Positions 46,368-50,482 of a stretch of DNA of 64,000 nucleotides are shown here, one piece after another; position 1 is the stretch's first letter; each line of letters opens with the position of its first letter. This DNA comes from Microbacterium sp. USTB-Y (GTDB lineage: Bacteria > Actinomycetota > Actinomycetes > Actinomycetales > Microbacteriaceae). Position numbers and translations under genes: made by a program. Location of the stretch: contig NZ_JAGMTU010000004.1 of NCBI RefSeq assembly GCF_023703415.1, positions 186,001 to 250,000 of the forward strand, given 5' to 3'. A model generated the notes under the pieces. That model made no database searches. It saw nothing but the letters and a program-made list of their open reading frames with translations, and was not told the DNA's origin.

Positions 46368-47690
46368 ATGACCGCTGCCGAGAACTGGCGCTTCGAGACC
46401 AAGCAGATCCACTCGGGCGCCGCACCCGACCCGGTCACCAAGGCCCGGGCGACGCCGATCTACCAGACCACGTCGTACGTCTTCGACAACGCCGACCACG
46501 CGGCGAACCTCTTCGCGCTCGCCGAGTTCGGCAACATCTACACCCGGATCCAGAACCCCACCCAGGACGTGCTCGAGCAGCGCCTCGCCGCGCTCGAGGG
46601 CGGCACCGGTGCGCTCGTGCTCTCCAGCGGGCAGGCGGCCTCGACGTTCGCGATCCTCAACATCGCCCAGGCCGGCGACCACTTCGTGTCGAGCTCGTCG
46701 ATCTACGGCGGCACCTACAACCTCTTCAAGTACACGCTCGCCAAGCTCGGCATCGAGGTCACGTTCGTCGAGAACCAGGACGACATCGACGAGTGGCGCC
46801 GCGCCGTCCGCCCGAACACGAAGCTGTTCTTCGCGGAGACCATCGGCAACCCGCAGATCAACGTGCTCGACATCCGCGGCGTGGCCGACGCCGCGCACGA
46901 GGCCGGCGTGCCCCTCATCGTCGACAACACGATCGCGACCCCGTACCTGATCCGCCCGTTCGAGCACGGCGCCGACATCGTCGTGCACTCCGTCACCAAG
47001 TTCCTCGGCGGCCACGGCACCACGATCGGCGGCGCGATCATCGACGGCGGGAAGTTCGCCTGGTCGCAGAACGTGGAGAAGTTCCCGGGCCTCACCGAGC
47101 CCGACCCCTCCTACCACGGCGCCAGCTACACCACCGCGGTCGGCGACGCCCTCGCCTACGTGATCAAGGCGCGCGTGCAGCTGCTCCGCGACCTCGGCTC
47201 CGCGATCGCGCCGCAGAGCGCCTGGAACCTCATCCAGGGCATCGAGACGCTGTCCCTGCGCATCGAGCGCCACGTGCAGAACGCCCAGGAGATCGCCGAG
47301 TGGCTCGACGCCCGCGACGACGTCGCCAGCGTCAACTACTCGGGCCTGCCCACCTCGCCCTGGTACGCCGCGGCGAACACCTACGCGCCGAAGGGCGTGG
47401 GCGCCGTGCTCTCGTTCGAGCTGAAGGGCGGCGTGGACGCCGGCCGCGAGTTCGTGAACAGCCTCACTCTGTTCAGCCACCTCGCCAACATCGGCGACGT
47501 GCGCTCGCTGGTCATCCACCCCGCCTCCACCACGCACGCCCAGCTCACCCCGGAGCAGCAGCTCACCACCGGCGTGACGCCGGGCCTGGTGCGCCTGTCG
47601 GTCGGCCTCGAGAACATCGACGACCTCAAGGCGGACCTCGACCAGGCCCTCGCCGCCGCGCGCAAGGTCTCCGAGGCCGCGCGCGCCTGA
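46368..47690 (+). CDS. metY: O-acetylhomoserine aminocarboxypropyltransferase (sulfhydrylase)
   Basis: PLP enzyme that makes homocysteine from O-acetylhomoserine and sulfide, feeding methionine synthesis. The PLP lysine is K211 in HSVTKFLGGHG. Cys/Met-metabolism family features include IYTRIQNPTQDVLEQRLAALEGG and LIVDNTIATPYL. The length of 440 residues is usual. AAGGAG sits five bases before the ATG. It works with metX, 1.6 kb downstream; the two are split here by an AbiEi-like gene and have a strong terminator between them. Confidence 0.96.
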   Translation: MTAAENWRFETKQIHSGAAPDPVTKARATPIYQTTSYVFDNADHAANLFALAEFGNIYTRIQNPTQDVLEQRLAALEGGTGALVLSSGQAASTFAILNIAQAGDHFVSSSSIYGGTYNLFKYTLAKLGIEVTFVENQDDIDEWRRAVRPNTKLFFAETIGNPQINVLDIRGVADAAHEAGVPLIVDNTIATPYLIRPFEHGADIVVHSVTKFLGGHGTTIGGAIIDGGKFAWSQNVEKFPGLTEPDPSYHGASYTTAVGDALAYVIKARVQLLRDLGSAIAPQSAWNLIQGIETLSLRIERHVQNAQEIAEWLDARDDVASVNYSGLPTSPWYAAANTYAPKGVGAVLSFELKGGVDAGREFVNSLTLFSHLANIGDVRSLVIHPASTTHAQLTPEQQLTTGVTPGLVRLSVGLENIDDLKADLDQALAAARKVSEAARA

Positions 47691-47701
47691 CGACTCCTCC
47701 T

Positions 47702-47751
47702 CAGAGACGGGAGCGCCCCGGGTCTTCGGATCCGGGGCGCTCCCGTCTCTG
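47702..47751 (+). terminator. Long metY terminator
   Basis: Perfect 20-bp stem (CAGAGACGGGAGCGCCCCGG on the left) with a ten-base loop that can itself close on a cTTCGg tetraloop. It starts 11 bases after the metY stop and would separate metY from metX transcription. Confidence 0.85.
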
Positions 47752-47788
47752 CGCGCGCGCTTCGCGTCGACGGCCCCTCCATCTCCGC

Positions 47789-47866
47789 GTTTCCCTCCCC
47801 CGGTCGCCTTTCCCTCCCCTGGTTCGCGTCGCTGAGGGGAGGGAAAGAAGCTGCGGGGAGGGAAAC
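47789..47866. repeat. 78-bp nested palindrome, copy A
   Basis: Outer arms GTTTCCCTCCCC (47789-47800) and GGGGAGGGAAAC (47855-47866); inner arms CTTTCCCTCCCC (47808-47819) and GGGGAGGGAAAG (47836-47847); 16-base loop. It matches copy B at 49062-49139 in about 63 of 78 positions without gaps. The rest of the 302-base gap after metY holds only its terminator and GC-rich sequence without other features. Confidence 0.8.
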
Positions 47867-47992
47867 AGGGGCTCGGGGGCAAGGGGCGGGGACGGACGGG
47901 TGTCGCTCCGCACACGGCTGCAGCCGGGCCGGCTCTCCACCGGGTTCGTGAACGACGTCCCCTGAGCTGTGCCGCCCACGCACGATCGCGTG

Positions 47993-48976
47993 ATGACGAA
48001 CCCTCTCGGGATCTCCGACGCCCGCGCGCTCCTGCGCACTCGTGCGCAGCTGCGTTCGGCCGGGACGAGCGAACGCGCGATCGACGCGGCCCTCGCGGCG
48101 GGCGAGCTGCTGCGGCTGCGACGCGATCGCTATGTCGATGCAGCCGCGTACGAGGCGCTGTGGAGCGAAGGCCGCCACCTCGTCCAGACCGTCGCCGCTG
48201 CGAAGAACCTGGACGATCACGGCGCAGTATTCTGGGGTCCGTCCGCCGCCGTGCTGCACGGCTTGCCGCTCTACCGCCTCCGCCCGGCGAGCGTGCACAC
48301 GGTGATCCTCGGCGGCCACCACGGCCGCGTACGGGCCGGCGTCCGGCAGCACGAGGTGTCTCTCGGCGTCGGAGACGTGATCGACATCGACGGGATCCTG
48401 TGCACCTCGCTGGACCGCACGATCCTGGACCTCGCCTGCACGGTCCCGGCCGAGGCGGCCGTGTGCGCCGCCGACGCCGCGCAGCGCCGCGAGACGGTGG
48501 TGGGGAACGAGTTCCGCGCGGATCGCGCCGCACTCTGGCACGCGCGCCTGGCCGACCGCGCCGCAGCGAGCCGGGCGTGGGGCATCCGGGGCGCTCGCGA
48601 ACTGCTCGCGTTCGCCGACGGCCGCGCGCAGCTGCCCGGAGAGAGCGTCAGCAGGCTGCAGCTGCATCGTCTCGGGTTTCGCGGTCTGCTCCTCCAGGTG
48701 CCGGTCACCGGTGCGGACGGCGATCGATACTGGCTGGATTTCGGATTTCCGCGTGCGAAGGTGTTCGGAGAGTTCGACGGCCGGGGCAAGTACCTCGACG
48801 ATGATCTTCGCGAGGGGCGTGCCGCGGACGAGGTCGTCCTCGATGAGAAGCGGCGTGAAGATGACGTGCGCGGCGTGACCGGCTGGCGCTTCGCGCGCTG
48901 GGACAGCACGCACATCGGCACTGCGGAGATCCTGGGCCGACGCCTCGCCCGCTTCGGCGTGCGCCCGCCGGGATGA
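47993..48976 (+). CDS. AbiEi-like winged-helix protein with DUF559/PD-(D/E)xK-like C-terminus
   Basis: A 327-residue protein. The N-terminus (RTRAQLRSAGTSERAIDAALAAGELLRLRRDRYVDA) resembles the AbiEi-type antitoxin winged helix. The middle includes GPSAAVLHGLPL. The C-terminal 100 residues have a nuclease-like set: ESVSRLQLH, DFGFP, EFDGRGKY and a REDDVR helix, as in DUF559/very-short-patch-repair-like folds. No partner toxin gene is adjacent. Its usual annotation is type IV TA AbiEi family; nuclease activity is inference. It may be leaderless (CACGAT six bases before the ATG). Palindromic repeats flank it on both sides. Confidence 0.7.
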   Translation: MTNPLGISDARALLRTRAQLRSAGTSERAIDAALAAGELLRLRRDRYVDAAAYEALWSEGRHLVQTVAAAKNLDDHGAVFWGPSAAVLHGLPLYRLRPASVHTVILGGHHGRVRAGVRQHEVSLGVGDVIDIDGILCTSLDRTILDLACTVPAEAAVCAADAAQRRETVVGNEFRADRAALWHARLADRAAASRAWGIRGARELLAFADGRAQLPGESVSRLQLHRLGFRGLLLQVPVTGADGDRYWLDFGFPRAKVFGEFDGRGKYLDDDLREGRAADEVVLDEKRREDDVRGVTGWRFARWDSTHIGTAEILGRRLARFGVRPPG

Positions 48977-49061
48977 GTCGCGCTCACTCGCCCACTCCTG
49001 CGCCACGCCTGGGTTCGCATGTGCCGCGCTCGGGCACTTATTCTGCCGGGTGCAGGATCGT

Positions 49062-49139
49062 GTTTCCCTCCCTCGGCCGCCTTTCCCTCGCCTGATTTGC
49101 GCTGCTCCGGGGAGGGAAAGGCGACGGAGGGAGGGAAAC
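49062..49139. repeat. 78-bp nested palindrome, copy B
   Basis: Same architecture as copy A: outer arms extend to 16 bases (49059-49074 and 49127-49142), inner arms CGCCTTTCCCTC (49078-49089) and GAGGGAAAGGCG (49112-49123). It lies in the 297-base gap between the AbiEi-like gene and metX, which otherwise holds a 14-bp tandem repeat and the metX promoter. Confidence 0.8.
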
Positions 49140-49182
49140 ACGAATGAGGCGAGGACACGGGGCAGGCGCCGACGCAACAAGC

Positions 49183-49210
49183 CCGCACCGCGATCCCCGC
49201 ACCGCGATCC
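49183..49210. repeat. 14-bp tandem repeat upstream of metX
   Basis: CCGCACCGCGATCC occurs twice head to tail, 64-91 bases before metX. Confidence 0.7.
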
Positions 49211-49261
49211 CCGCGACGCACGAGGATCCGTAACCTTCCGCGCTCTGCCGCCCGCACCCGC

Positions 49262-49267
49262 GAGAAT
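49262..49267 (+). promoter_or_regulatory. Leaderless -10 box of metX
   Basis: GAGAAT followed by six bases and the metX ATG. Confidence 0.35.
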
Positions 49268-49273
49268 GGATCC

Positions 49274-50482
49274 ATGGACTGGCAGACGACCTCGGAGGAC
49301 ACGGTGCCCTCGGCGCGCGTCTCGGAGGCGGATGCCCGCCTGCTGCGTGCGCGTCCGCCGGCCACGGGCGCCTGGCGCGACGGCGATCCCGCCGGAGACC
49401 GCCGGTTCGAGGCATTCGGGCCGTTCCGCACCGAGGGCGGCGAGCAGCTGCCGCTCATCCGGCTCGCCTACGAGTCCTGGGGCGAGCTGAACGAGGCGCG
49501 GGACAACGCGATCCTGATCCTGCACGCGCTCACGGGCGACAGCCACGTGGTGGGCGAGGCCGGCCGCGGTCACGCGACGAGCGGCTGGTGGGGCGAGATC
49601 GTCGGACCCGGCTGCGCGATCGACACCGACGAGTGGTTCGTGATCGCGCCGAACATGCTCGGCGGATGCCAGGGGTCCACGGGCCCCTCCAGCATCGCGC
49701 CCGACGGCTACGAGTGGGCCTCGCGCTTCCCCTACCTCACGATCCGCGACCAGGTCGCCGCGCAGGTGCTGCTGGCCGACGCCCTCGGCATCGACCGCTG
49801 GGGGGCCGTGATCGGCGGATCCATGGGCGGCATGCACGCCCTGGAGTGGGCGGTCGGGCACCCCGACCGCGTCGAGCGTCTCGCCATCCTGTCCTCTCCC
49901 CCGGTGACGACGGCCGACCAGCTCGCACTGAACTTCGTACAGCTCGAGACGGTGCGGATGGATCCGCGCTTCGCCGGCGGCGAGTACTACGACGCGCCCG
50001 TCGGCGAGGGGCCCCACCGCGGCCTCGCGCTGGCGCGCCGCATGGCGCTGCTGAACTACCGCAGCCCGATCGAGCTGAACCAGCGGTTCCAGCGATCGTG
50101 GCAGTCCGACGTGTCGCCCCTCGGACAGGGCGGCCGGTTCGCCGTGGAGAGCTATCTCGACTTCCACGGCAACAAGTTCACCCGCCGCTTCGACGCGAAC
50201 AGCTACCTGACGCTCGTGGAGGCGATGAACTCGCACGACATCGGGCGCGACCGCGGCGGTGTCGAGGACGCCCTGAAGCGGGTCAGCGCGACGACGCTCG
50301 TGCTCGGCATCGACACCGACCGGTTGTTCCCCGTGGACGGCCAGCACCGCATCGCCCGGGGCATCCCGCGGACGCTCGACGGAGCCGAGGCCGTGGTGCT
50401 CGCGAGCGACTTCGGCCACGACGGCTTCCTCATCGAGACCGACGAGGTCGGCCGGCACCTCACGAGGCTGCTCTCGTCCTGA
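49274..50482 (+). CDS. metX: Homoserine O-acetyltransferase
   Basis: Alpha/beta-hydrolase-fold enzyme that acetylates homoserine with acetyl-CoA for the direct sulfhydrylation route. The nucleophile is S183 in GGSMGGMHALEW; LTGDSHVVG, GGCQGSTGPSS and the C-terminal FGHDGFL supply the other family and catalytic motifs. The length of 402 residues is normal. Its product feeds metY upstream; hom at the left edge makes its substrate. Confidence 0.96.
   Translation: MDWQTTSEDTVPSARVSEADARLLRARPPATGAWRDGDPAGDRRFEAFGPFRTEGGEQLPLIRLAYESWGELNEARDNAILILHALTGDSHVVGEAGRGHATSGWWGEIVGPGCAIDTDEWFVIAPNMLGGCQGSTGPSSIAPDGYEWASRFPYLTIRDQVAAQVLLADALGIDRWGAVIGGSMGGMHALEWAVGHPDRVERLAILSSPPVTTADQLALNFVQLETVRMDPRFAGGEYYDAPVGEGPHRGLALARRMALLNYRSPIELNQRFQRSWQSDVSPLGQGGRFAVESYLDFHGNKFTRRFDANSYLTLVEAMNSHDIGRDRGGVEDALKRVSATTLVLGIDTDRLFPVDGQHRIARGIPRTLDGAEAVVLASDFGHDGFLIETDEVGRHLTRLLSS

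Follow-up and report, generated by a model that had tools for sequence, protein, structure and literature searches.

In Microbacterium sp. USTB-Y, a single gene encoding a predicted DNA-binding and nuclease fusion protein lies between metY and metX, with a large nested palindrome on each side (Table 1). The window is the whole 64-kb stretch of DNA (64,000 nucleotides) that was analysed around this locus, and all positions refer to it. An earlier note on this DNA had named the two neighbours metY and metX, and NCBIfam agrees with both names; it had also described one gene between two repeats, and the gene is indeed one uninterrupted open reading frame, starting at ATG 47993 or GTG 47969 with a stop codon that ends at 48976. 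The simple hairpin 3' of metY is probably the metY terminator, and hairpins like it are present in the gene-free metY–metX gaps of relatives. No AbiEii-type (DUF1814) toxin partner adjoins the fusion gene in the window, its neighbours being metY and metX. Likewise, we found no evidence supporting a defence role for the gene, which has no other defence gene as an immediate neighbour in the window.

Table 1. Features of the metY–metX locus in the window
Feature	Coordinates	Strand	Remark
metY (O-acetylhomoserine sulfhydrylase), left neighbour, outside the system	46368..47690	+	ORF; NCBIfam NF005872 above cut-off
Simple 23-bp hairpin 3' of metY, outside the system	47702..47751	+	
Left four-site nested palindrome	47785..47867	.	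words 47790-47799, 47809-47818, 47837-47846, 47856-47865
AbiEi-nuclease fusion gene	47993..48976	+	327 aa from ATG 47993; 335 aa if GTG 47969
N-terminal helix-turn-helix region, residues 1-55	47993..48157	+	boundary set from predicted structure
AbiEi C-terminal (nucleotidyltransferase-like) domain, residues 56-209	48158..48619	+	
Vsr/EDxHD-like nuclease domain, residues 210-327	48620..48973	+	
Right four-site nested palindrome	49058..49143	.	words 49063-49072, 49082-49091, 49110-49119, 49129-49138
metX (homoserine O-acetyltransferase), right neighbour, outside the system	49274..50482	+	ORF; NCBIfam NF047917 and NF001209 above cut-off; orthologues

Two four-site palindromes bracket the gene

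Each palindrome contains four copies of a word of about 10 bases: TTTCCCTCCC occurs twice in the left arm, followed by its complement twice in the right arm, and in both palindromes the copy-to-copy distance inside each arm is 19 bases. Among these copies there is one variant, TTTCCCTCGC. The arms are 81% complementary in the left palindrome (47789–47820 with 47835–47866) and 89% complementary in the right one (49058–49095 with 49106–49143), and the left copy (47786–47867) aligns without gaps to the right copy (49059–49140) at 80% identity over 82 nt. These values bear out the pair of nested palindromes of about 78 bases that the earlier note had seen bracketing the gene, each being an inverted repeat. 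Both have strong predicted folding. We considered whether they could be terminators and rejected this, as neither of them coincides with a scored terminator-like site; no Rfam family was found in 47600–49300.

To score such structures we used a four-site detector with a word of 9 bases, two words per arm and a permitted step of 14–26, whose strict rule allows a total of at most 3 mismatches. In the 64-kb window, the strict detector returned the two gene-flanking palindromes alone, and it returned none in 5 Markov-simulated windows. When up to 4 mismatches were allowed, two further chance-like places appeared in the window, with 1–2 in each simulated window.

The fusion protein and its constraint

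No Pfam or NCBIfam model matched the window protein above threshold, and no transposase model was among the Pfam or NCBIfam matches. PADLOC AbiEi models match its residues 10–192, and they match 81 of 81 aligned members of the family. An AlphaFold model made from the 81-sequence alignment has a mean pLDDT of 91. When this model was compared with known structures by VIA-align, residues 11–209 aligned to AbiEi of Streptococcus agalactiae (6y8q) with Z 9.6, while residues 212–325 aligned to I-Bth0305I (Z 9.5, rmsd 3.1 over 92) and to Vsr (Z 9.5, rmsd 2.8 over 105); TnsA scored Z 6.5. Foldseek returned E < 0.001 for the AbiEi match alone, the nuclease half being weak (Vsr, E 0.6). As modelled, the window gene product resembles an AbiEi-type DNA-binding module joined to a Vsr/I-Bth0305I-like nuclease. 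Five residues, E217, D249, E260, D262 and K266, are invariant across the 81 sequences; these are putative catalytic residues and may correspond to the EDxHD pattern.

The earlier note had read the protein as AbiEi joined to a DUF559/PD-(D/E)xK domain. The AbiEi half and the Vsr-like kind of nuclease held up, but the Pfam family did not: DUF559 (PF04480) does not match the window protein and is absent from the Pfam families of the 81 members. The DUF559 gathering score was exceeded by one distant homologue alone (L035), and the C-termini of three distant homologues (L032, L033 and L035) match the MTES_1575 / DUF559 Pfam models, neither of which matches the window protein.

The fusion gene is under purifying selection. 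No stop codons occur in the 80 matched homologue stretches, and when USTB-Y is compared with L069 and L070, dN/dS is ~0.2 for the whole gene and ~0.1 for the nuclease domain. In 10 of the 12 pairs compared, the nuclease is under tighter constraint than the AbiEi part.

Palindromes and their words at homologous genes

Our homologue sample comprised the best 80 of 307 relatives, mostly from Microbacterium, with two from Humibacter and some from MAGs. A four-site palindrome lies within 350 bp of the gene in 56 of these 80 (upstream in 48, downstream in 42) and on both sides in 34, so that other repeat-bounded copies of the gene family, which the earlier note had named as support, are in fact common. 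Elsewhere in the same 80 loci there are 17 palindromes in ~1,330 kb, a background that leads to ~0.8 expected in the examined flanks. Although steps of 14–26 were permitted, 91 of 92 palindromes have a word step of 19. The median distance from the upstream palindrome to the matched start of the gene is 115 bp. In the remaining 24 homologues, neither flank has a strict palindrome; at 7 of the 80 loci, less than 300 bp of sequence is available upstream, and L070 carries degenerate palindromes on both sides. A scoring of simple hairpins at the 80 loci is weaker than the four-site detector: it found them upstream in 26, downstream in 27 and on both sides in 15, with 32 elsewhere in 1,330 kb. One four-site match, in L029, begins at the gene start and was taken as chance; this locus has long hairpins on both sides of the gene.

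The words themselves are diverse among homologues, including CGAGACCCC, CGAGATGAC, CGAGTGCAC, CGCCCCCTC, CGACGCCCC, TTTCCCTC and more. Within a locus, left and right words have a resemblance of 0.80, compared with 0.595 between loci (35 loci, being the 34 plus USTB-Y), and the highest of 20,000 permutations in the left–right test reached 0.68. Word similarity also tracks protein identity (Mantel rho 0.68, 0 of 5,000 permutations). Since linkage alone would give part of this word–protein correlation, we place more weight on the left–right match and on the dispersal tests below. Taken domain by domain over 57 loci, the correlation with the word was highest for residues 101–120 of the AbiEi C-domain, with a small partial correlation (0.3), and a link between these residues and the palindrome word may serve as a weak lead only.

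The words change together at a conserved place

The gene is found at the same metY–metX place in 10 of the 80 loci. Flanking DNA of the metY–metX loci aligns to that of USTB-Y at 67–93%, and the palindromes therefore occupy the same places across lineages. The word is TTTCCCTCCC on both sides in USTB-Y, L069 and L070; CGCCCCCTC or GGCCCCCTC on both sides in L071, L072, L074, L075 and L083, and on the one side available in L073; GA(G/A/T)ACCCCCAC-like on both sides in L080, with the left one at 4 mismatches; and GA(G/A)ACCCCCTC in L082. Thus, in the ten metY–metX relatives, palindrome positions are kept, and the words are lineage-specific and alike on both sides wherever both are available. Protein identity to the USTB-Y gene at this place is 54–83%, as compared with 86–97% for MetX.

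A separate comparison covered 30 metX loci, among which the fusion gene was found in the examined flank of USTB-Y alone; with the other 29 lacking the gene in the flank, we regard it as an addition in one clade. In 11 of the 30, metX follows metY after a short gap (124–412 bp) that lacks the gene, so that sites of the kind that the earlier note had named as support do exist. Another 12 have 950–1,221 bp between metY and metX, several with another gene, and in 7, USTB-Y included, metY lies beyond the examined flank. The metY–metX interval is a variable site, with other genes in L044, L048–L054, L056, L058, L062 and L067; those seen here elsewhere in the genus are SDR-like, endonuclease/exonuclease/phosphatase-like or DUF2332-like, as named by eye from translations. 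Three of the 11 short gaps hold other large palindromes, L045 (genome G049), L064 (G048) and L066 (G061), with yet other words (ATCTCGCAG, CTTCGCAGA-like and ACTCCGCAG), and those of L045 and L066 satisfy the four-site rule.

Gene-less palindromes across genomes

In the USTB-Y genome, a DNA query together with a pattern search located the TTTCCCTCCC palindrome at six places, two of them at the gene. Gene-less copies elsewhere in the genome thus exist. The earlier note would have counted genome-wide repeats with no tie to the gene family as a refutation, but the repeats, though they occur at other places in the genome, are tied to that family. The gene-less copies of USTB-Y (3–4, in L002, L004, L005 and L253) are degenerate, and none satisfies the strict rule: L004 was accepted at 4 mismatches and L005 at 5, and the copy in L253 (C3:73861) is a BLAST match alone, without a four-site score.

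Among 16 genomes with 28 candidates scored per genome, the TTTCCCTCCC palindrome query found at least 13 places in G134, at least 18 in G135 and at least 4 in G141, counts that are lower bounds and that include, for G134 and G135, two places each at the gene and, for G135, two places in a doubtful contig. In the other 12 of the 16 genomes, no match at the palindrome was found among the candidates scored. The genes of G134 and G135 are 83% and 80% identical to the USTB-Y gene, respectively, and have the same word; G141 has TTTCCCTCCC palindromes despite its own gene being flanked by GAGACCCCCAC-like words. Most stretches around the TTTCCCTCCC places hold a four-site palindrome at no more than 3 mismatches, many at 2, whereas L260, L265, L269 and L270 have one at 4–5 mismatches only and L259 has none. 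A short TTTCCCTCCC pattern gave a single stray match each in five of 22 further genomes, never as a four-site palindrome, and its backward control matched in three genomes. Arrangements that look like local amplification are seen in L258 (G134:C7) and L264 (G135:C45), namely a series of three palindromes spaced ~200 bp apart and a palindrome in which additional copies of the word are present. An apparent inverted pair of palindromes in L263 (G135 contig 25) is symmetric about the middle of a contig of 5,980 bases and is probably an assembly artefact; its two places are included in the 18 of G135 but not in the placing count below.

For other words, too, dispersal goes with the cognate gene. 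The six genomes whose metY–metX gene has the word CGCCCCCTC contain 7, 13, 25, 29, 27 and 14 pattern matches to it; in these counts, the inner and outer pairs of one palindrome may both count, and gene places are included. In 12 other genomes there were 5 matches in USTB-Y, one each in G141, G006 and G015, and none in eight. The USTB-Y palindromes with this word of its relatives, in L240 (C2) and L250 (C3), are perhaps relics of an earlier word. For CGAATCACC, three palindromes were found in G015, one of them near the gene, and none in 22 other genomes.

The broadest comparison used GAGTGCAC. At least 2 palindrome matches occur in 7 of 7 genomes with a homologue of at least 59% identity, as opposed to 11 of 112 others (Fisher p 6e-7), where identity was measured to the second gene copy of USTB-Y and USTB-Y is among the seven. 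These seven cognate genomes have 2–8 matches each, counts that include one match at the gene in G048 and two in G102. At least one match occurs in 23 of the other 112 genomes, with 11 in G092, 9 in G132, 6 in G075 and 6 in G106, and G065, which has a 56% homologue, has zero. G092 and G075, with their 11 and 6 palindromes, have no homologue at E 1e-30, and their palindromes are orphans in this sense. The backward control for GAGTGCAC matched in four genomes, with 38 of its matches in G069.

Several further observations concern these genomes. GAGTGCAC palindromes are abundant without a close cognate homologue in G092 (L177), G132 (L185) and G075 (L172), and contig 26 of G092 holds two identical inner pairs 158 bp apart. 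The backward control pattern is itself palindromic, and its 38 matches in G069 perhaps belong to another palindromic repeat family. The second gene copy of USTB-Y (G000:C5:201307-202245, L036) has the word CGAGTGCAC and two palindrome matches elsewhere, and a third, more distant homologue lies at G000:C6:145867-146709.

Placing and shared addresses

Gene-less palindromes are largely extragenic. Outside predicted genes lie 33 of 35, and the two inside genes are both in L246. Between divergent genes there are none among the 20 with both neighbours known, and for 12 of 13 extragenic palindromes with one known neighbour, that neighbour excludes a divergent placing. This count covers 48 loci, 13 of them without a strict palindrome; it leaves out palindromes of L255 (two) and L237 (one), both of which hold the gene, and of L263 (two), and genes were predicted with a GC3 rule made for this analysis.

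Some gene-less palindromes have counterparts at the same address in relatives. At the L005 address, six relatives carry palindromes with GAGRCCCCCTC- or GARACCCCCAC-like words; five of them satisfy the strict rule, and the sixth is accepted when 5 mismatches are allowed. L004 and L267 (G135) form a second shared address, both with TTTCCCTCCC. At the L002 address, USTB-Y, G138 and G140 each carry a palindrome, with words of their own, and G136, G137 and G141 have none; G136 and G137 have a palindrome ~1 kb further on. The G135 contig ends at this address, and the next gene differs. We saw no insertion with target duplication, and the neighbouring genes also differ at the L002 address. For this reason, copying of the palindromes is something we infer, and slow co-evolution of binding sites could also yield the word switch.

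Breadth of the association

In a profile search of the class, a relative at E 1e-10 was found in 108 of 148 genomes and 67 of 81 genera. Among 30 loci of this search, the strict four-site form was found at L273 (the second copy of USTB-Y), L274, L289 and L295. L274 belongs to the same family and has four-site palindromes on both sides, and L289 and L295 are the only two outside the family to show this form. Simple hairpins occur in 7 of 52 flanks, compared with 0 in 57 kb elsewhere (26 loci, counted without L289 and L300, one of which had been seen before and one of which is of the same genus). At L299, a sequence is common to both sides of the gene. Because the four-site form is rare among class loci, any partnership outside the family is weak or of another shape, and the four-site partnership is seen mainly in Microbacterium and near relatives. 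We found no homologue at E 1e-5 among 72,556 plasmid or 50,697 phage records, and a plasmid or phage origin of the gene was dismissed on this ground.

In the open-licence literature, at the level of titles and abstracts, we found no AbiEi, DUF559 or Vsr-like nuclease paired with dispersed palindromes, which does not establish absence from print. The findings point to a previously undescribed partnership of a nuclease with a genomic repeat family.

Discussion

The association of palindromes with the gene, the left–right word match, the 19-bp step, the genome-matched dispersal and the joint word change are computed directly. The fusion gene is vertically inherited at metY–metX and the gene-less palindromes vary and disperse, as follows from the same metY–metX place in 10 loci and from word changes that are alike on both sides. 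We lean, with modest confidence, towards a repeat–nuclease partnership that works like REP/RAYT systems with unrelated parts; its binding, cleavage, copying and autoregulation we infer. Exceptions to the pattern are the orphan palindromes, the foreign words found in USTB-Y and G141, the 24 homologues lacking a strict palindrome and the rarity of the four-site form outside the family; copy numbers far lower than those given for REPs also speak against this reading.

AbiEi antitoxins are described as autoregulators that bind inverted repeats, and the homologue Rv2827c as binding four, in two pairs (PMC7319586). On this basis, we take the AbiEi module as the word reader, and the fixed 19-bp step as a sign that several protomers form a rigid complex. 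The module would read the ~10-bp word at a 19-bp step, two per arm, in the ~78-bp palindrome. Protomers would occupy the four words, and the nuclease, of the Vsr / I-Bth0305I fold, would nick or cut the palindrome, either as a duplex or extruded. Repair or replication would then copy palindromes to new places or convert old ones, such that a genome's palindromes would end up with the word read by its current protein. Palindromes would disperse without the gene into 3' extragenic regions, and the upstream palindrome, by analogy with AbiEi, is probably also the operator of the fusion gene. Copying or conversion would account jointly for dispersal, joint word change and shared addresses. That the nuclease may act on the palindromes, as the earlier note had guessed, is now better motivated by the word matching together with the fold.

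Of the other readings, one in which the protein is an AbiEi-like transcription regulator, with four-word operators upstream of the fusion gene and at the ends of others, deserves the most attention, improbable as we consider it. The nuclease domain would then act elsewhere or have been recruited, and words would shift by co-evolution of regulator and operator, giving a joint change on both sides and at the gene-less L005 address. The inverted repeats bound by AbiEi autoregulators, four in Rv2827c (PMC7319586), and the upstream palindrome at its median of 115 bp before the gene start are in keeping with such a regulon. But while a regulon explains the joint word change, it leaves unexplained the 3' extragenic placing, with 0 of 20 copies between divergent genes where operators would be expected, and the copy numbers, with matches ranging from 7 to 29 between relatives that share CGCCCCCTC. 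It also leaves the downstream palindrome without a role, and it is difficult to reconcile with putative catalytic residues that are invariant and with the tighter constraint on the nuclease, relative to the AbiEi part, in 10 of the 12 pairs.

Two further readings are, in our estimation, quite unlikely. In one, chromosomal palindromes would hold or mark the nuclease, which would be freed or redirected against invading DNA with or without the word. Such a role in defence or self-recognition would suit the PADLOC AbiEi matches in 81 of 81 homologues, the other genes that relatives carry at the metY–metX site, and a gene that diverges more than its neighbour (54–83% against 86–97% for MetX); it is at odds with the lack of a toxin partner or defence gene directly beside the gene in the window, with the one place kept in 10 loci, and with the empty search of plasmid and phage records at E 1e-5. 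In the other, gene and palindromes would move as a unit with the palindromes as terminal repeats, as the earlier note had supposed, and like-worded palindromes on both sides in 34 of 80 homologues and gene-free metY–metX sites in 11 of 30 loci are what such a cassette would leave. Since the gene stays in place at metY–metX, we rejected this as the main reading, and the idea of a gene moving with its repeats finds no support in that same place in 10 of 80 loci or in a nuclease dN/dS of ~0.1. Flanking DNA is common to most of the closest homologue pairs, genomes searched with the USTB-Y palindrome have more gene-less copies than copies of the gene, and the plasmid and phage records gave no matches, all of which speak against a cassette. 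That we are dealing with ordinary hairpin terminators, or with generic repeats that have nothing to do with the gene, is hardly credible: the palindromes are 3' of genes and fold strongly, but this coincidence is refuted by the enrichment at homologues and the left–right word match, and is at variance with the 19-bp step, with dispersed words that match the genome's own gene, and with the absence of a terminator-like site at the window palindromes.

The repeat–nuclease partnership may, more specifically and more tentatively, be a selfish or domesticated system, in which an AbiEi reader with a Vsr-fold nuclease spreads and homogenises palindromes by homing-like cut-and-copy, and 'word dynasties' turn over at conserved addresses; this we regard as possible, somewhat short of probable. 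If true, reader specificity and the genomic copies of the word would be replaced together, in successive dynasties. If a different nuclease with a rigid four-site element of 19-bp step proved to be an independent solution, the pairing of one resident enzyme with scattered palindromes would be seen to have evolved more than once. As a natural series of matched protein–word pairs, the homologues would also allow the rewriting of DNA specificity to be studied.

Comparison with known systems

With AbiEi of type IV toxin–antitoxin systems, the window protein shares sequence and fold in its DNA-binding region and C-terminal domain, and the palindrome upstream of the window gene would, by analogy, be compatible with autoregulation; unlike AbiEi, the window gene has no adjacent AbiEii toxin, carries an extra nuclease domain and has palindromes downstream and dispersed. 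The MTES_1575 REase is described as a Vsr-fold domain of Microbacterium testaceum (PMC3710099). It and DUF559 differ from the window protein, which matches neither model, and the consulted part of the MTES_1575 description mentions no repeat partnership (PMC3710099). With regard to insertion sequences, whose units of gene and repeats would lie at different places in close relatives, with target duplication, most close homologue pairs here have a genomic context in common.

In fold, residues 212–325 are like the EDxHD homing endonuclease I-Bth0305I and like Vsr. In homing endonucleases, sequence-specific cutting drives copying, and this is the model for the step that we propose. In contrast with a homing endonuclease gene, the window gene interrupts no target: the palindromes are whole on both sides, and the targets would be the repeated palindromes.

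REP elements are widespread bacterial repeats, and to our knowledge RAYTs are the sole kind of enzyme known to partner them. RAYTs are described as IS200/IS605-related tyrosine transposases, and REPs as 20–40 bp long and in many cases tagged with GTAG (PMC2817692, PMC3733652), with more than 100 per genome (PMC2817692). The system described here differs in its enzyme, which has an AbiEi and a Vsr-like PD-(D/E)XK fold and no HUH tyrosine transposase; in its repeats, which are four-word palindromes of ~78 bp with a 19-bp step and lineage-specific words, in place of 20–40 bp with GTAG; and in its copy number, which is far lower. It is like REP/RAYT in that a single gene is flanked by palindromes, gene-less copies are extragenic, the repeat is specific to a gene lineage, and repeats without a resident enzyme also occur. 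In the window gene family, as in RAYT/REP systems, the repeats that flank the gene thus also occur dispersed in gene-less form.
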